Assembly: GCA_945948915.1 (NCBI GenBank)
Contig: CAMFCQ010000017.1
Coordinates: forward strand, 1 to 42,776
Reading direction: 5' to 3'
Source: an uncultured Clostridia bacterium
GTDB taxonomy: Bacteria; Bacillota; Clostridia; Christensenellales; Aristaeellaceae
DNA: 42,776 nucleotides
The position numbers were made by a program, and so were the translations under genes. Below are positions 23,736-41,535 of the stretch, in pieces (within the stretch, counting starts at the first letter, position 1; each line of letters starts with the position of its first letter). The notes beneath the pieces are model-generated. The model worked only from the letters and a program-made list of their open reading frames with translations. It was not told where the DNA came from and made no database searches.

Positions 23736-24548
23736 TTATGGGTTCATCGGGCTGAAGCCGACCGCCTCAAACACGGCGCTGGCCTCCTCGCCGGTCAGGT
23801 AGGCAAGGAACGCCTTGGCGGCCTCTTCGTTCTTTGTTGTCTTGAGCACGGCGGCCGGATAGATGACCTGGCCGCACATCTCGGCGGTGGCGGTATCCAC
23901 GACGGTCAGGCCCGCGCTGTACGCGTCGGTGCCGTAGATGATGCCGCAGTCCACCACAGCCTCGGCCACCTGCGTGGTGACCTCCTTGACGTTGGAGCCG
24001 TAGGTGGTCACGCCTGCGGCGGCAAGCTCTTCCTCGCTGACGCCGTAGTACGCCAGGATCTTCTGGGTGTACTGGCCGACCGGCACGTCGGCGTTGCCCA
24101 TCGCCAGCATGAGGCTGCCAGCCTTGAGGCCCTCGATCAGCTGATCGTAGGAGGTCACGTTCTTCGGGTTGCCTTCCGGCACGGCGAGAGCGACCTTGTT
24201 CTCCAGCAGGTTGATGCGGGTGCCCTCAAGCACGAAATCAAGGCGCGCCGTGTTGGCCCCGGAGGTGATGTCCAGCGCGTTCATCTGCTTGGGCGCGGCG
24301 GAGATGAACAGGTCGCAGTCTGCGCCCTCCTCAATCTGGGTCTTGAGCGTGCCGGAGGAATCGAAGTTGCAGACGATCTCCACGTCCGGATCGACTTCCT
24401 TGTACAGCTCGGCGATCTTTGTCAGGGTTTCGGTCATGGACGCGGCTGCGAAGACGATCAGCTCGGTCTTTTCCGCGCAGGCGCACACGGACAGGGACAC
24501 GCTCAGCACGAGCGCCAGCACAAGGGCGGCAAGTTTTTGGATCTTCAT
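23736..24548 (-). CDS. modA: molybdate ABC transporter substrate-binding protein
   Basis: Binds molybdate or tungstate outside the membrane. The 270-residue protein has a signal peptide with a possible lipobox (SLSVC), then ELIVFAAASMTETL, DSSGTLKTQIEEGADCDLF and CGIIYGTDAYSA, all ModA landmarks. ATG 24548 is preceded by AGAGAAAACCCG, a poor ribosome binding site. modB and modC are absent from both sides: a strong terminator follows and moaC comes next, so the permease and ATPase must lie elsewhere. The leader carries RNA regulators. Confidence 0.93.
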   Translation of the reverse strand: MKIQKLAALVLALVLSVSLSVCACAEKTELIVFAAASMTETLTKIAELYKEVDPDVEIVCNFDSSGTLKTQIEEGADCDLFISAAPKQMNALDITSGANTARLDFVLEGTRINLLENKVALAVPEGNPKNVTSYDQLIEGLKAGSLMLAMGNADVPVGQYTQKILAYYGVSEEELAAAGVTTYGSNVKEVTTQVAEAVVDCGIIYGTDAYSAGLTVVDTATAEMCGQVIYPAAVLKTTKNEEAAKAFLAYLTGEEASAVFEAVGFSPMNP

Positions 24549-24576
24549 CGGGTTTTCTCTTTTCGTATTGATTTTG

Positions 24577-24643
24577 GGGGAGAAAGCCGCTATCCTATTC
24601 CTGATAGGGTGGACAAGAGGAATGCTCAGGCAGCTTTCTCCCC
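24577..24643 (-). ncRNA. long closed stem-loop in the modA leader, unclassified
   Basis: GGGGAGAAAGC (minus strand) pairs perfectly with GCTTTCTCCCC, 11 bp, enclosing 45 bases with an inner CCTAT/ATAGG hairpin. It ends 28 bases before the modA start codon, downstream of the riboswitch terminator, and lacks a T-tail. I do not recognise it as a known aptamer. Confidence 0.45.
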
Positions 24644-24701
24644 TATGTATAGGAAACGGCTGAGTGGCACCTCGGCCGTTTTCTATTGCCGAAAAGCGTG
24701 C

Positions 24702-24748
24702 GGAAAATAAAAGAATGGTCCGCAATCCCCAAAAAAGGATGCGGACCA
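24702..24748 (-). terminator. attenuator terminator in the modA leader
   Basis: TGGTCCGCA and TGCGGACCA arms extend through GGAT/ATCC around a T-rich loop. A T-rich tail (TTCTTTTATTTT) follows on the minus strand. It lies between the aptamer and modA. Confidence 0.82.
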
Positions 24749-24784
24749 CGACAAACAAAGCCGAGCCTGAACGGACGCTCTGAC

Positions 24785-24906
24785 CGTGCGTATTCCGTCT
24801 CCTTTTCAAACAGGAAGGCTGCACCGTTTCCCTTGCAGCCCTTAGCCGGTTGCCCGGCGCGGCCCTGATTCCATCGCTTTCGCCTTAGGAAGGAGGGCTC
24901 GAAGAC
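24785..24906 (-). ncRNA. Moco-type riboswitch upstream of modA
   Basis: The leader contains GAGCCCTCCTTCC, CGCCGGGCAACCGGC, GCAAGGGAAACGGTGC and AAAAGGAGACGGA in that order, which resembles my recollection of the Moco RNA motif. Position supports this: it begins at the predicted transcription start, precedes a terminator and modA, and Moco genes are next door. Moco RNAs usually sense molybdenum or tungsten cofactor. Assignment rests on motif memory, not an alignment. Confidence 0.6.
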
Positions 24907-24912
24907 AATACC

Positions 24913-24941
24913 ATTGTATCGGCCTGCGGACGATCTGTCAG
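24913..24941 (-). promoter_or_regulatory. modA promoter
   Basis: CTGACA (24936-24941), 17 bases, TACAAT (24913-24918) on the minus strand. The start point falls at about 24906, right at the aptamer's 5' end. Confidence 0.62.
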
Positions 24942-25009: not shown

Positions 25010-27514
25010 TCACCTGCGCAGATTCCTGACGATGGCCTGCACGATCTCCTCCATGACGATGGGCTTTGACAGATGCTCGTTCATGCCCGCGTTCAGCGAG
25101 GCCTGCACGTCCTCGGCAAAGGCGTTGGCCGTCATGGCAATGATGGGTATCCGGCGGGCGTCCGGGCGATCCTGCATGCAGCGGATGGCCGCGGTGGCCT
25201 CATAGCCGTTCATCTCCGGCATCATGATGTCCATGAGGACGATGTCAAAGGCGCCCGGCGGATTGCCGGCAAACAGGGCGACGGCCTCTCTCCCATCTCT
25301 GGCCCGCGTCACCTGAACGCCCAGATCCTCCAGCTGCACCATGGCGATTTCCGCATTCAGATCGTTGTCCTCCGCCAGCAGGAGCCTGACGCCCGCAACG
25401 CTCGCCCCGACGGCAGGAGGCTCCTTCTCCTGAATCCCGATTTCGTCCGTCAGCTCCACCGGCAGCTGCACCGTGAAGACGGAGCCCTGGCCCTTTTTGC
25501 TCTGCACGGAAATGGCGCCGCCCATCAGATCGACATACCGCTTGGTGATCGCCAGGCCCAGGCCGGTGCCCTTGTAATGCGTGCGCGCACCGTTTTCCTC
25601 CTGGGAGAACTCGTCAAATAGACGCTTGAGGAATTCCCCGCTCATGCCCACGCCGGTATCCGCAATCCGATAGCGCACCAGGATATGCCGCTCATCCTCG
25701 CCGGGCAGATAGCTTGCCTCAAAGGTAATGCTGCCGCCGTCCTGCGTGAATTTGACGGCATTGCTGAGGATGTTGACCAGCACCTCCCGAATGCGGATGG
25801 AATCAGCCAGCACATAGGGCGTCTCGGGCACGGCCAGGTCGGTGTGCAGGGTGAGGTTCCGGTCGGCCAGAAAGCCATGGATGATGCTGAGCACCGCGTC
25901 GGTCACAGCCGTCAAATCAACAAGCGTGGGCGCAAACTCGATTTTGCCGCTTTCGATGCGGCTGATGTCCAGCACGTCGTTGATCAGGGTCAGCAGATGC
26001 TCGGTGCTGTTCCTGATCTTGCACAGATAGTCCCTGACCTCCGCCTTGGGATCCAGCTTCAGCGCGATGTTGGTGAAGCCGATGATGGCGTTCATCGGCG
26101 TGCGGATGTCGTGGGAGATGTTGTTGAGGAACGTGGTCTTGGCGCGGCTGGCATCCTCCGCGGCGCAGACGGCGTCCTCGAGCTCCTGGTGGATCTTCTT
26201 GTCGCCGGTGCGGTCGGACAGATCCAGGATGTACTTCTCTTCGCCCTGGATGACATTGCAGAAGGCGACCACATGGAAAAAGCGCGTCTCGCCGCTGACC
26301 TGGTGGATATACTCCCTTTCCCATTCCGCCTGCCTGCCGGGGCGGATCTCCGCGAGGCTGTGGAACAGATGAACGGGGTCGTTTTCCGGGAGGATCCGCT
26401 CGATCACATGAGCGTTTTCGTAGATCTGCGCCGCCGGAATGCCCAGCAGCTTTTCAATGTTGGGGCTGACGTAATCCGTCCTCAGGCTCCGGGCGTCCAG
26501 CATCAGGAACACGTCGTCCACATTGACCGACAGCATGGAGAACAGCTCGTCGCGCACAAGCAGCTCATGATCCTTGCGTCTGAGCACCTGCCGGTTCTGC
26601 AGAATCACGATCACCAGAACCAGCATGGCCAGCACGACGGCAATGCCCGACACCACGAGCAGGGTCGTGGCCTGGAGTCTGTTCATGCTGGCGTTGACAA
26701 CGCTGGTGGGCACAATGCCCAGCACCATCCAGTCCTGAAAATGCGCGGACTCATACACCAGATAGTAGCGTGTGCTGCCGACGCAGAACACGAGCTCGCC
26801 GGAATTGCCCGCGAGAAAATCCGCCTGCACGGCAGCGCGGTCCTCGTCGGTCAGATGGCTGCACCGCTCCAGCAGGGCGAAGATGTTGCGGATGTTCTTG
26901 CGCCCTCCAGCGCCGTTGTCCACGACGATCCGGCCGTCGGGCAGCGCGGCGAAGGTGCCCGCCTGTCCGTTGAAGGCAGAGACCTTCAGCGCCTCCACCA
27001 GGTCAGAGTTATTGTAGGTGATGGCGATGGCCTCATAGCCAAAGCCCCGGTAGCTGCCGGGCGTGGCGGGCGCGGCAAACACCATGATCTCCGGCTTGTC
27101 CGGGACGACGGATTGGGCGACCACCGGCTTCTTTTCCAGAATCAGATCCGAAAGCTGCTCCCGCAGATCCAGATAGCCCTGTTTACCCTCCAGCGTGATG
27201 TATTCGCCGTCGCGGGAGATGAAGTAGAAATCGGTGAAGTTGGTCTCCTCCCGGGCCTGATTGACGTAGGATACGATGTCCTCCTCGCTCCCGGCCGCTT
27301 CCAGATAGGGCGCCCACATGCGCACGCGGCTCCAGCTGACCGTCACCAGGTTGTGCAGCGTCTGGTTGGCCTGATGGAAGATCTCAACAAGGTGATCAAT
27401 GCTCTCCTCATAGATCGTCCGGGAGACAAAGCCGGCATAATAGGACATTCCGGTACAAATCACGCCAGCGGCCAGCGCAAGCGCAAGCAGAATCGTGATC
27501 CATCGCTTCTTCAT
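25010..27514 (-). CDS. dCache-PAS hybrid sensor histidine kinase with receiver domain
   Basis: An 834-residue membrane sensor. Membrane helices lie near residues 5-25 and 285-308 and enclose a dCache-like extracellular domain (INTERIOR segments NFTDFYFISRDGEYITL and IMVFAAPATPG). A PAS domain follows (DDVFLMLDARSLRTDYVS, about 330-440), then HisKA with His near 467 in NISHDIRTPMNAI. The HATPase shows VNILSNAVKFT, DTGVGM and GTGLGLAITKR. The C-terminal receiver has its phospho-Asp near 762 in IVLMDIMMPEMNG and a conserved Lys in SKPI. No DNA-binding output is present, so the phosphate probably passes to the Hpt protein of the same operon. It follows a solute-binding lipoprotein gene. Confidence 0.93.
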   Translation of the reverse strand: MKKRWITILLALALAAGVICTGMSYYAGFVSRTIYEESIDHLVEIFHQANQTLHNLVTVSWSRVRMWAPYLEAAGSEEDIVSYVNQAREETNFTDFYFISRDGEYITLEGKQGYLDLREQLSDLILEKKPVVAQSVVPDKPEIMVFAAPATPGSYRGFGYEAIAITYNNSDLVEALKVSAFNGQAGTFAALPDGRIVVDNGAGGRKNIRNIFALLERCSHLTDEDRAAVQADFLAGNSGELVFCVGSTRYYLVYESAHFQDWMVLGIVPTSVVNASMNRLQATTLLVVSGIAVVLAMLVLVIVILQNRQVLRRKDHELLVRDELFSMLSVNVDDVFLMLDARSLRTDYVSPNIEKLLGIPAAQIYENAHVIERILPENDPVHLFHSLAEIRPGRQAEWEREYIHQVSGETRFFHVVAFCNVIQGEEKYILDLSDRTGDKKIHQELEDAVCAAEDASRAKTTFLNNISHDIRTPMNAIIGFTNIALKLDPKAEVRDYLCKIRNSTEHLLTLINDVLDISRIESGKIEFAPTLVDLTAVTDAVLSIIHGFLADRNLTLHTDLAVPETPYVLADSIRIREVLVNILSNAVKFTQDGGSITFEASYLPGEDERHILVRYRIADTGVGMSGEFLKRLFDEFSQEENGARTHYKGTGLGLAITKRYVDLMGGAISVQSKKGQGSVFTVQLPVELTDEIGIQEKEPPAVGASVAGVRLLLAEDNDLNAEIAMVQLEDLGVQVTRARDGREAVALFAGNPPGAFDIVLMDIMMPEMNGYEATAAIRCMQDRPDARRIPIIAMTANAFAEDVQASLNAGMNEHLSKPIVMEEIVQAIVRNLRR

Positions 27515-27540
27515 GACGTCGATTTCCTTTTGCTGCGGCT

Positions 27541-29433
27541 TTATGGATGCACAATGGTCACGTAGTCCGTGGGCGGCAGAAGCTGCCGGGTTTTCTCCAG
27601 CGCATTCATGATGCCGCCCTGGTTCGTGGGCTTCACCTCGTACACCTGCGTTCGCTTGTCCTTCAGGTCCTGCGGCATGGGGCAGTTGCAGAAGGTGGGA
27701 TGCTCCAGGCAGGTGTCCGCGCCAAGCAGCATCACGCTGTACACGGCGTCGTCGTCAAGGGGCTGCCCGTCCACGGTGATCTCGCCCAGGGCGAACTTTC
27801 CGCGCTCCGTCTCGGTGACGGTGTATTCCATGCCGCTGGTGATGGGCAGCAGGTTGCGGTGCATCACTGGGTTGGAGCCGTCCGCCTTCACATTGACCAG
27901 CCAGTCCATGATCCGGCGGATTTCCTCGCCGGTGTAGGAGGCCTGGTAGACGTTGTTCTTGTAGGTCATGATCCACTTGATCTGCTGCGTGGTGTAGTCC
28001 CCGGCAAAGATGGACGAGCTGATGACGCTGGAATAGCCGATGGCAATCTGCTCGCCGCCGAATACGCGCAGCGTGTTCATCAGGGAGGAGCCGGCAGGGA
28101 CGCCGTGCTCGCCAAAGTCGACGGAATAGGCGTTTTCCTGCGTGAACACCACCTCTTCGGCCTCCGGGTTGACGTAGTGCATGATCTGGGCGCTGAAATC
28201 CTCATAGGCACCCTGCGCGCCGTAGACGCCCTTCATCATCTTCTGGGCCACATCCAGGGAGATGGCGAAAATCTCCGTGGAGGCCAGGCGCATATACAGG
28301 TGATTGCTGTCGATGCAGTCCTGTACATATCGCAGGGAGGGCGCAGGCGAGATGCTCACCTCCTTGTTGTAGGAGAGCACGGAGGAGCCGGCGGCAGCGG
28401 CCCGCTGGCCCTCCTCGCTGAAGATGGCCAGCAGAACCTCCCGGACGGCCTCGCTCTTTTCCTTGTCCTCTTCCACATGCCTGGCGACGGCCAACTGGCA
28501 TATGGGGTAGGTGAGCACCCAGTTGTCCTCCGCGGTCTCGCCAAAGTACGGCAGGATGACGCTGCTCACGCCGTATTCCTCCGTGATCTCCTCAGCCATG
28601 GCCGCCGTGGCGCGGATCATGGCCGTCCGGCCTTCGAAATAGGGCTGGGTCACAGGAGAGAAGTTCAGCTGCTCGTCGCCAGGCTCAAAGCGCACGTCCC
28701 TGAGGAACTGCTCGTATCTGGCGAACACCTTCGGCCAGACCACATTGTCCAATCCCACCGGATTGTCCTGCGTCTCGCTTTCGTATTCCATGCGCCAGCG
28801 GGTACCCTCCAGGCTCATCAGCTCCGGGATGGCGCAGCCCTGCATGGTCTCCAGGCAGGTGTAGTCATATGCCCAGTCGGTCTGGAAGCCCTTGATGCCC
28901 AGCGCTTCAAAGGCGTCAATGGCGGCGATGAACTCGGCGTAGTTGGTGGGCAGCGCTATGCCATAGCGGTCAAACAGATCCTTGTTGGCCATGAGGCAGT
29001 CCACCTCGGCGCACATGGGCAGCCAGCGGATGGCGCCGCCCGTCTCGCGGTTGCTCTCCAGATAGCTGCTGTAAAACGTGCCGGCCACCTCGGATTTGCT
29101 CAGGTCCATCAGATGCCCGGCCAGAGGGGCGGCGTCGTTCAGGGAGAAGCGGCGGCAGGTGATGATATCCGGCAGGTCGTACCCGCGCTCCAGCAGATCC
29201 GTGTAGTAATCGATGGTGTTGTAGCTCTGAACAAAGGTGAAATCGATGTTGGGAAACTTCTGCTCCAGCCACGGGGTCAGCTCCTTGAACATGGACCGAT
29301 CCCACATGTAGATGCTGAGCGCAACCCTGCCGTCATCTTTCGCCTGCACGGTGCTCTCTGCCCGGTATTCGCAGCCGGTGAGCAGGATAGCCGCCAGGAT
29401 GACGCACAGCAGCAGACAGATAAGCTTCTTCAT
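27541..29433 (-). CDS. lipoprotein fusing an ABC solute-binding domain to a 5'-nucleotidase C-terminal domain
   Basis: A 630-residue exported lipoprotein with lipobox LLTGC (Cys 21). Residues about 30-420 resemble family 1 extracellular solute-binding proteins (LSIYMWDRSMFKELTPWLEQ, then DLPDIITCRR and YFEGRTAMI). Residues about 430-630 resemble the 5'-nucleotidase C-terminal substrate-binding domain: FAGDYTTQQIKWIMTYKN, YTGEEIRRIMDWL and ITVDGQPLDDDAVYSVM. The metallophosphoesterase domain is missing, so binding rather than hydrolysis is likely. There are no ABC permease genes nearby; it sits between Hpt and hybrid-kinase genes, implying a sensory role. ATG 29433 follows GGAGGGA by eight bases and gives a normal lipoprotein signal. 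Confidence 0.8.
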   Translation of the reverse strand: MKKLICLLLCVILAAILLTGCEYRAESTVQAKDDGRVALSIYMWDRSMFKELTPWLEQKFPNIDFTFVQSYNTIDYYTDLLERGYDLPDIITCRRFSLNDAAPLAGHLMDLSKSEVAGTFYSSYLESNRETGGAIRWLPMCAEVDCLMANKDLFDRYGIALPTNYAEFIAAIDAFEALGIKGFQTDWAYDYTCLETMQGCAIPELMSLEGTRWRMEYESETQDNPVGLDNVVWPKVFARYEQFLRDVRFEPGDEQLNFSPVTQPYFEGRTAMIRATAAMAEEITEEYGVSSVILPYFGETAEDNWVLTYPICQLAVARHVEEDKEKSEAVREVLLAIFSEEGQRAAAAGSSVLSYNKEVSISPAPSLRYVQDCIDSNHLYMRLASTEIFAISLDVAQKMMKGVYGAQGAYEDFSAQIMHYVNPEAEEVVFTQENAYSVDFGEHGVPAGSSLMNTLRVFGGEQIAIGYSSVISSSIFAGDYTTQQIKWIMTYKNNVYQASYTGEEIRRIMDWLVNVKADGSNPVMHRNLLPITSGMEYTVTETERGKFALGEITVDGQPLDDDAVYSVMLLGADTCLEHPTFCNCPMPQDLKDKRTQVYEVKPTNQGGIMNALEKTRQLLPPTDYVTIVHP

Positions 29434-29459
29434 TTGCATGTCCCTCCGTTCTGATGGAT

Positions 29460-29831
29460 TCATCGGTGATCCGAATCCCGATAGGCGCAGATGGCGTCCG
29501 CCGTGATCCGGTAATCCTGCTTCACGGTTTCAAGCAGCGCACAGGCGTCGGCGGGGATGGCCTGCGCTTCAGGCCGAAGCAGCTCCGTCAGCTGCGACGC
29601 GGACGCATACAGCCTGCTGAAACCGAGTGTGCCGCTGACGCCCTTGAGCGTATGGGCCGCGCGAAACGCCGCCCCGCGGCTGCCTTCCTCCATCGCCGAG
29701 CACAGCGATGCGAAGCTGTCATCGTCTAAAAACCTGACAACGAACCGCTCGACCAGACGCCTGCCGGACAGATGCTTTTCCGCCTGGGCCAGATCGCCGC
29801 CCAGCTGCCTGTAACACGCCTCGATTGTCAT
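29460..29831 (-). CDS. histidine phosphotransfer (Hpt) domain protein
   Basis: A 123-residue four-helix Hpt protein. The phosphorylatable His near residue 60 sits in AAHTLKGVSGTLGF. Hpt proteins relay phosphate between receiver domains. It is the first gene of the operon with the solute-binding lipoprotein (27 bases to the chosen start) and the hybrid kinase, whose receiver is the likely donor. A final response regulator is not in the window. Confidence 0.9.
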   Translation of the reverse strand: MTIEACYRQLGGDLAQAEKHLSGRRLVERFVVRFLDDDSFASLCSAMEEGSRGAAFRAAHTLKGVSGTLGFSRLYASASQLTELLRPEAQAIPADACALLETVKQDYRITADAICAYRDSDHR

Positions 29832-29851
29832 CGCGCCTCATCCTTTCGTCG

Positions 29852-29868
29852 TATGGATAGTATCCATA
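29852..29868. promoter_or_regulatory. palindromic operator candidate before hpt
   Basis: TATGGATA-G-TATCCATA is a perfect 8-bp inverted repeat lying between the predicted transcription start (about 29879) and the hpt start codon. Confidence 0.5.
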
Positions 29869-29885
29869 TCTGGTATATACATCTT

Positions 29886-29913
29886 ATTATACATGATTAC
29901 CGACGCTTTTCAA
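29886..29913 (-). promoter_or_regulatory. promoter of the hpt/lipoprotein/kinase operon
   Basis: TTGAAA (29908-29913), 16 bases, perfect TATAAT (29886-29891) on the minus strand. Confidence 0.62.
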
Positions 29914-29959: not shown

Positions 29960-29998
29960 CAAAAAAAGAACCGGCCGACAAAAATCAGCCGATTCTTT
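29960..29998 (-). terminator. thiC terminator
   Basis: AAGAATCGGCTGA pairs with TGTCGGCCGGTTCTT (minor mismatches), followed by a run of seven T on the minus strand, 15 bases after the thiC stop. Confidence 0.85.
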
Positions 29999-34784: not shown

Positions 34785-34800
34785 GTGCTTCATTAAGTTT

Positions 34801-34888
34801 CAAGCTCCCTACGGCGGCATTATCCACGTCAGGTAAAAAAGGTCGAAGGTGAATCCTTCCTCTCAGCCTGTCCACACAAGCTCCCTCG
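34801..34888 (-). ncRNA. TPP riboswitch upstream of thiM
   Basis: Minus-strand landmarks AGGCTGAGAGG, CTTCGACC, ACCTGACGTGGATAATGCC and GCCGTAGGGA match the THI element in order. A terminator follows, so TPP should prevent thiM-thiE transcription. Confidence 0.95.
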
Positions 34889-34968
34889 CTGATTCAGTTG
34901 TCACAAAGTTCCGGGCGAAGAATGCCGCCCGAACCATGCAGATATTCTATCTCTTTTTTCGCGGAAAA

Positions 34969-41425: not shown

Positions 41426-41456
41426 CAAAAAGGCGCACCGAACAATTCAGTGCGCC
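41426..41456 (-). terminator. riboswitch-controlled terminator before fhs
   Basis: GGCGCACTGA and TCGGTGCGCC pair across ATTGT, followed by TTTTTG on the minus strand. Its 5' arm overlaps the end of the aptamer. Confidence 0.9.
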
Positions 41457-41535
41457 CAGACGGTCGGCTATAGCGCTTGCGCGCCGCGGCACTTCCTGTG
41501 GGTGATCCCACTTCCGTCAGTCATGCCGCTTCCGA
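41451..41535 (-). ncRNA. ZTP (pfl) riboswitch upstream of fhs
   Basis: Minus-strand segments CATGACTGACGGAAGTGGG, CACCCACAGGAAGTGCCG and CCGACCGTCTGGGCGC fit the pfl motif, whose 3' hallmark is CCG-CC-TGGGC. It precedes fhs, one of the commonest ZTP-riboswitch genes, and a terminator. Confidence 0.82.

Follow-up and report, generated by a model that had tools for sequence, protein, structure and literature searches.

What might be the task of a solute-binding lipoprotein that ends in the C-terminal domain of 5'-nucleotidases and is encoded between a histidine phosphotransfer (Hpt) protein and a hybrid sensor kinase? The question is raised by three minus-strand open reading frames (ORFs), in the transcription order Hpt, lipoprotein, kinase, at positions 25010-29831 of contig CAMFCQ010000017.1 (C17 of assembly GCA_945948915.1), the whole 42,776 nucleotides of which are referred to here as the window, from an uncultured Clostridia bacterium of the Aristaeellaceae that is probably an animal gut inhabitant. 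A sequence-only reading of this DNA had proposed that the lipoprotein captures a nucleotide- or sugar-like ligand at the cell surface and presents it to the kinase, with phosphate flowing from the kinase receiver to the Hpt protein and then to a distant regulator. The answer favored here, to which a probability of roughly 0.72 is given, is that the trio is a sensory phosphorelay assisted by a solute-binding protein, the nucleotidase tail of which has been repurposed and is non-catalytic.

In this model the lipid-anchored protein, a fusion of a solute-binding protein (SBP) domain with a 5'-nucleotidase C-terminal (5NC) domain, would bind its extracellular ligand in the cleft of the SBP part and would make contact with the dCache domain of the kinase in the membrane, while the 5NC tail would have a docking or a second regulatory role. 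The kinase would autophosphorylate at its HisKA domain and pass the phosphate to its own receiver (REC), from which it would travel via the co-encoded Hpt protein to a response regulator whose gene lies elsewhere in the genome.

Domain make-up of the trio

The three ORFs are present as the sequence-only reading described them, and the fusion that it saw in the lipoprotein is borne out by the domain search, in which SBP_bac_1 (PF01547; approximately residues 45-430) scores 28.8 bits against a cut-off of 26 and 5_nucleotid_C (PF02872; approximately residues 440-600) scores 40.7 bits against a cut-off of 23.6, with no Pfam match to a metallophosphatase domain. The modest SBP score is made firm at the family level by a profile of 83 lipoproteins, which matches the solved family-1 SBP 3quf with E=5e-18 across the domain; the underlying alignment comprises the window's protein and 82 relatives, i.e. 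the 84 that are uncut by contig ends among 88 SBP-type ORFs of 560-760 aa, minus two from locus L114. The protein begins with a lipoprotein signal peptide with the lipobox LTGC (Cys31), and a loose lipobox pattern is found in 79 of the 83. Its start was formerly placed at 29433, which is Met11; the ORF opens at a first ATG at 29463 that overlaps the Hpt stop (ATGA), and Met9 (29439), with GGAGG ahead of it, is a further candidate, so that the true start is probably Met9 or Met11. Counted from Met11, 26 bp separate the lipoprotein from the Hpt gene, and the spacing from lipoprotein to kinase is also 26 bp.

The kinase reads, from its N-terminus, as a transmembrane helix, a dCache-like ectodomain (about residues 30-285), a second transmembrane helix (both helices being judged by eye), a PAS-like region, HisKA, HATPase_c, and a single REC. 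The last three are well above their Pfam cut-offs, PAS_3 is below its own at 18 bits, and the H-box reads SHDIRTP; among 52 kinases compared, 31 have one receiver and 21 have two. The Hpt protein matches PF01627 with 42.9 bits (cut-off 24.6), and the acceptor motif HxxKG is kept in 20 of 21 Hpt sequences, including that of the window (HTLKG). It is the only Hpt match in its genome, which is 88.7% complete, and a single match is likewise found in each of three other genomes with the trio that were tested (L044, L045, and L069). With one detectable Hpt per trio genome, the pairing of Hpt and kinase is hardly ambiguous where an Hpt occurs, which favors the relay from REC to Hpt that had been proposed.

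Probable partnership of the lipoprotein and the sensor domain

One argument for the model comes from relatives of the lipoprotein, taken as the best 80 of 230 that were found when each species was scanned through a single genome (loci L044-L123; L069=L016, L052=L017, L081=L018, L096=L019, L105=L020, L109=L021, and L117=L022 are each counted once, and the near-identical-looking L114 and L115 are both counted in the neighborhood tally). A kinase with a related sensor domain lies downstream of the lipoprotein at 63 of the 72 loci that have at least 250 bp of downstream sequence, and at 60 the gap is at most 100 bp; homologues thus keep company with dCache-type kinases, and neither of the outcomes named as refuting the sequence-only reading was obtained (no match to the 5'-nucleotidase C-terminal family; homologues mostly in the company of ABC permeases and not of kinases). 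A same-strand Hpt gene is much rarer (see below). Of the nine exceptions, L082 has a piece of the kinase, L104 a piece of the sensor where the contig ends, L112 a second lipoprotein and then the contig end, and L070, L089, and L100 no match to the kinase within their 320-545 bp of downstream sequence; the other three are weighed further below. Clustering of all ORFs flanking the 80 loci, with antisense shadows set aside, gives as families present in at least four loci the lipoprotein (80), the kinase (65), Hpt (20), a helix-turn-helix (HTH)-REC regulator (13), an ABC exporter-type protein (9; the L074 copy has ABC_membrane and ABC_tran), a REC-GGDEF-EAL protein (6), and a rhodanese-domain lipoprotein (5).

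The second line of evidence is co-divergence, calculated for 52 pairs (the window and 51 loci in which both genes are near full length). Distances between SBP domains correlate with those between dCache domains with r=0.888, compared with 0.622 for the kinase core, 0.677 for PAS, and 0.740 for REC; in partial correlations among SBP, dCache, and kinase core, the SBP-dCache value is 0.823 and the SBP-kinase core value is 0.252. At two loci, L048 and L052, the proteins share with the window's group 71-84% identity in the SBP and 54-67% in the dCache domain and only 38-46% in the kinase core, and carry two receivers, from which it appears that lipoprotein and sensor half move together, whereas the transmitter can be replaced. 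Such a swap argues against mere joint inheritance as the source of the co-divergence, which fits, without proving, a physical partnership of lipoprotein and dCache domain. The proposed presentation of the ligand to the kinase gains support from this in an indirect manner.

One alternative, which is unlikely, is direct binding of the signal by the dCache domain, with the lipoprotein acting merely as a local scavenger or modulator. Direct ligand binding by dCache domains has been described, AI-2 being an example (PMC7584622), and in the CuaDSR system of Ruminiclostridium cellulolyticum the kinase without its SBP still responds, albeit less well (PMC10384115). Against such a subordinate role stand the co-divergence together with the frequent adjacency of the two genes, and also the strong conservation of the SBP residues. 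Across the 83 aligned lipoproteins, second copies included, 29 columns are invariant, and 23 of them lie within the SBP part (among them D99, W147, D196, D200, Y201, W223, R224, Y227, W243, R284, W315, and N387), which suggests one ligand class. In a survey of model bacteria, almost all SBP_bac_1 proteins were predicted to be sugar binders (PMC9602780), and by this analogy the ligand in the cleft is probably sugar-like; among the recurrent neighbors of the 80 loci no catabolic gene was recognized that could name the sugar.

The second copies just mentioned derive mostly from loci with two SBP-5NC lipoproteins in tandem (L090, L092, L094, L096, L097, L100, L101, L103, L107, L109, L114, L115, L118, L120, and L123). 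The 17 that were aligned are 32-38% identical to the window's lipoprotein, and a few of them (L047, L106, L112, and L087) are second copies of another kind than the tandem upstream one. Beyond the 80 loci, L187 has the order Hpt, kinase, lipoprotein, second lipoprotein, and L186 holds two modules in succession.

The tail, the rival readings, and the points against the model

The nucleotide-like ligand considered in the sequence-only reading would have to be held by the tail, and this reading, in which the 5NC domain binds a nucleotide or nucleoside, is unlikely. The domain itself is well attested: besides the above-cut-off match in the window, PF02872 is found in all 55 C-terminal parts tested (E<=0.001) and, at E<=0.01, in all 10 members of another alignment, and the profile of the whole lipoprotein reaches the solved nucleotidase 3ivd through the tail with E=0.0027. 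The UshA/CpdB-type 5'-nucleotidases have 5_nucleotid_C in common with the lipoprotein, which differs from them in having neither the metallophosphatase nor the classical nucleotide-site motifs. When isolated, the C domain of CpdB has no activity but holds a substrate/adenosine site (PMC7922932), a point in favor of this reading. Weaker signals are obtained from the tail alone, whose profile reaches 3ivd only at E=0.29 and whose single-sequence PDB search gives an esterase (E=1.3) as sole match; in three second-copy lipoproteins that were scanned, PF02872 stays below the curated cut-off (18.5, 18.4, and 22.4 bits).

What speaks against nucleotide binding is the loss of the classical motifs. NGGxR-type and GGDGY strings are absent from all 83 aligned lipoproteins, a PFxN-like string occurs in five, and the metallophosphatase-type string GN[HE][DE] in none, while the classical 5'-nucleotidase of the same genome (L028) shows NGGGIR, PFGN, and GGDGY; aligned to it, the tail has GYSSVIS, TYKNN, and a gap at these positions. 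The lipoproteins vary (F, N, A, Y, or other) in the column matched to Phe429 of UshA, which we take to be the Phe of PFGN, and where the second clamp residue would lie the tail alignment has a gap. In the enzymes the base is stacked between Phe429 and Phe498 (UshA) or between two Tyr (CpdB) (PMC7922932). The main copies share instead other conserved tail residues, among them W497, W521, N531, H535, and a CNCPMP stretch, most of the second copies being without the latter. While such conservation could also be counted in favor of a binding site, the distinct set points to a strongly selected function that is not that of the classical nucleotide site. The tail is thus probably no longer a nucleotide-binding half-enzyme, and it is most likely a docking or second regulatory domain, docking being what we infer.

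For the third alternative, the surroundings were screened for ABC transporters in a rough manner, counting any match of at least 60 bits to any of ten ORFs from permease loci of the window's own genome between 3.5 kb upstream and 5 kb downstream of the lipoprotein. The screen is positive at 12 of the 80 loci, in no case with a same-strand match closer than 1 kb, and it overcounts, since an exporter (L074) and ATPases (L092) are among its matches; a 73-aa piece of an ABC ATPase 66 bp upstream in L057 falls below its threshold. Together with the neighbor clustering, it gives no fixed ABC-importer neighbor across the 80 loci. The window agrees with the earlier statement that no ABC permease is near: the 42.8-kb contig has no PF00528 permease, the one family searched, compared with 76 PF00528 matches genome-wide. 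It is very improbable that the lipoprotein simply serves an ABC transporter whose permease is encoded elsewhere, with the kinase as an incidental neighbor, for although SBP_bac_1 proteins commonly serve ABC importers, the genome holds those 76 matches, three copies have no kinase, and three loci have transporter genes a few kilobases upstream, the dCache kinase follows the lipoprotein at 63 of 72 loci and the overcounting screen finds nothing close by on the same strand.

It has to be noted that several observations weigh against the assisted phosphorelay. The window's own ectodomain gives no match to dCache_1 (PF02743), while 58 of 60 aligned related ectodomains match at E<=0.01 (best 2.2e-11; the alignment holds 60 of 61 relatives, L114 being left out, plus the window's); the dCache label of the sequence-only reading consequently holds at the family level only. 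Among seven relatives' kinases scanned whole, four match dCache_1, all of them under the 45-bit cut-off, and the ectodomain profile finds no relative in the PDB at E<=0.1. Three lipoproteins with full downstream sequence have no kinase (L051:5944-7839, L074:5995-7917, and L087:6001-7866), the last of them beside a second, divergent module of Hpt, lipoprotein, and kinase. L092 has a PF00528 permease together with an ABC ATPase some 2-3 kb upstream in the same orientation, and relatives of this permease are placed likewise, with an ATPase, in L097 and L103 (Pfam was run on the L092 pair). Co-divergence also arises from joint inheritance of neighbors, and the clear transmitter swaps are two loci only. 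A second nucleotidase-type protein, the metallophosphatase L029 (1372-2943 (-)) with the same C domain, is likewise without the nucleotide-site strings, so that the motif loss in the tail is no proof against nucleotide binding. A same-strand Hpt is in the gene run at only 14 of the 80 loci, and the Hpt step is thus not general. As for the terminal regulator, a search of the window genome for relatives of the HTH-REC protein gives receiver-part matches only, and one for GGDEF proteins gives no match.

Outputs, surroundings, and meaning for the family

The distant regulator of the sequence-only reading fits the window genome insofar as no output regulator linked to the trio was found there; relatives depart from it, having three kinds of linked regulator. 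The HTH-REC protein is in the same run at 13 of the 80 loci, plus two fragments; of six regulators of this type that were scanned, five have HTH_26 above cut-off at the N-terminus and REC at the C-terminus, and the sixth (L061) has REC only. Their order, a Cro/CI-type HTH in front of the receiver, is the reverse of the usual one (L046:4676-5557, L049, L057, L064, and L114). When the genomes of 14 of the 80 loci were searched for it (E<=1e-30), full-length matches were found in two (G693 and G697), receiver-part matches in eight (that of G696 being perhaps a broken or cut-off copy), and none in four; the L044, L045, and L069 genomes have no match, and the L055 genome, also with a trio, has receiver-part matches. 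The REC-GGDEF-EAL protein is in the same run at six loci (L063, L075, L077, L095, L098, and L123), and the four scanned have EAL and GGDEF above cut-off, which links the sensor to c-di-GMP in relatives.

A REC-LytTR gene lies upstream of Hpt on the same strand in L044:4614-5327, L045:3567-4289, and L046:3821-4543 (Pfam was run on L044), at a distance of 280 bp, of 1.3 kb, and beyond the HTH-REC gene, respectively; two of these three loci are the exact trio, and the gene is a candidate output. The window genome encodes roughly 20 receiver proteins (22 matches); two REC-LytTR proteins (on contigs C14 and C16) and two Spo0A_C proteins are found in it. Among the loci compared, the nearest relatives of the L044 protein there are those of C16 (65.5 bits) and C14 (49.9 bits), scores too weak for calling them orthologues. 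The Spo0A_C proteins are at C11:23891 (L149) and C55:5393 (L162), the second with a receiver just below the Pfam cut-off.

The surroundings of the trio suggest that its genes are probably a unit of their own (Table 1), with a promoter-like site ahead of Hpt and a terminator-like stem after thiC; both sites are supportive only, because the scan totals are near chance (three promoters compared with 1.5 expected and five terminators compared with 4.1, as judged from shuffled sequence). A link of the trio with the thi genes was considered and rejected, as the stem and the separate promoter-like site intervene; among neighbor clusters of at least three loci, no thi gene was recognized by eye (Pfam being run on few clusters). 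Beyond the kinase follows a molybdate gene set, headed by the molybdenum-cofactor riboswitch (24916-24783). A rhodanese-domain lipoprotein is near the cassette at five of the 80 loci (L065:3994-4533, L092, L094, L097, and L103), where one small cluster lies opposite.

Table 1. Coordinates of the trio and of other features in the window
Feature	Position	Strand	Remarks
Hpt phosphotransfer protein	29460..29831	(-)	123 aa, acceptor motif HTLKG (His60), PF01627
SBP-5NC lipoprotein	27541..29463	(-)	640 aa from first ATG; PF01547 + PF02872
Hybrid sensor kinase	25010..27514	(-)	834 aa; HisKA, HATPase_c, REC
Sigma-70-like promoter TTGAAA-16-TATAAT ahead of Hpt	29886..29913	(-)	11/12 consensus positions; consensus match only
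Terminator-like stem + T-run after thiC, between thi genes and trio	29975..29992	(-)	consensus match only
ModA-like molybdate binding protein (SBP_bac_11)	23736..24824	(-)	contig without PF00528 permease
Molybdenum-cofactor riboswitch	24783..24916	(-)	
TPP riboswitch	34789..34897	(-)	
ZMP/ZTP riboswitch	41447..41534	(-)	

Relatives of the lipoprotein are scattered. Within the same family of organisms, nine of 300 genomes (the window's own included) have one at E<=1e-20; at the class level, a loose first look with three candidates scored per genome gives six of 391 (again with its own) at E<=1e-40, in five families. The 80 loci are labeled as Oscillospiraceae, Lachnospiraceae, Erysipelotrichaceae, Clostridia, and others, with a few Spirochaetales or Anaeroplasma bins (labels of metagenome bins may err), and deer caecum, colon, or rectum is the stated origin of several, including the nearest same-genus relative, L069. 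Such a patchy distribution resembles that of a cassette subject to gain and loss.

Among the characterized systems closest to the trio is CuaDSR, in which a lipoprotein SBP gene is in one operon with a sensor kinase gene and the SBP binds the kinase (PMC10384115). There, CuaD is an SBP of 410 aa for which no further domain is described, whereas the window's lipoprotein adds the 5NC tail; CuaS, a 627-aa kinase with HAMP, is described without a receiver and with an outer part without predicted domain, whereas the window's kinase has REC and a dCache-type ectodomain; and the output is the linked YesN/AraC regulator CuaR, with an ABC importer operon next door under control (PMC10384115), whereas the window's trio has an Hpt and no linked PF00528 permease. 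The two best matches of the window kinase's transmitter part are the NCBIfam models of TorS and LuxQ, the curated cut-offs of which are not reached. LuxP, TorT, and XylFII are binding proteins of other families and are not known to have a 5NC tail. In the LuxP-LuxQ, TorT-TorS, and XylFII-LytS pairs, the binding protein acts on the ectodomain of the sensor kinase (PMC6321045). The system of the window looks as if it works like these binding-protein-assisted kinases, and it is set apart from them by its 5NC tail, by an ectodomain of dCache type, by the use of an Hpt or of interchangeable outputs, and by the absence of a linked importer. A fusion of SBP and 5NC paired with a kinase was not found in the open-access literature searched, outside of which most subscription papers lie.

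A broader reading, more tentative than the assisted phosphorelay itself, would see in the locus a widespread and self-contained signal-reception cassette of Clostridia-type anaerobes, many of them from animal guts, in which the two-part lipoprotein would be a dedicated adaptor of the dCache domain, with one ligand class conserved across hosts and with interchangeable transmitters and outputs, DNA-binding or c-di-GMP. As no catabolic gene was seen to recur beside the cassette, the ligand would in such a case be, in place of a nutrient taken up next door, either a signal or a glycan derived from the host or the microbiota. The trio is also carried by the named strains Pseudoflavonifractor phocaeensis An858 (L044) and An901 (L045), each with a single detectable Hpt, which makes ligand finding and tests of the relay practical. 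Few binding-protein-assisted kinases have been characterized; a 2018 review regards the indirect binding mechanisms known by then as relatively low in number (PMC6321045). Here, one family of SBP-plus-tail lipoproteins stays with one dCache family (at the 63 of 72 loci) while transmitter and output change, and its sequences suggest that the C domain of a nucleotidase has been reused without its enzyme.

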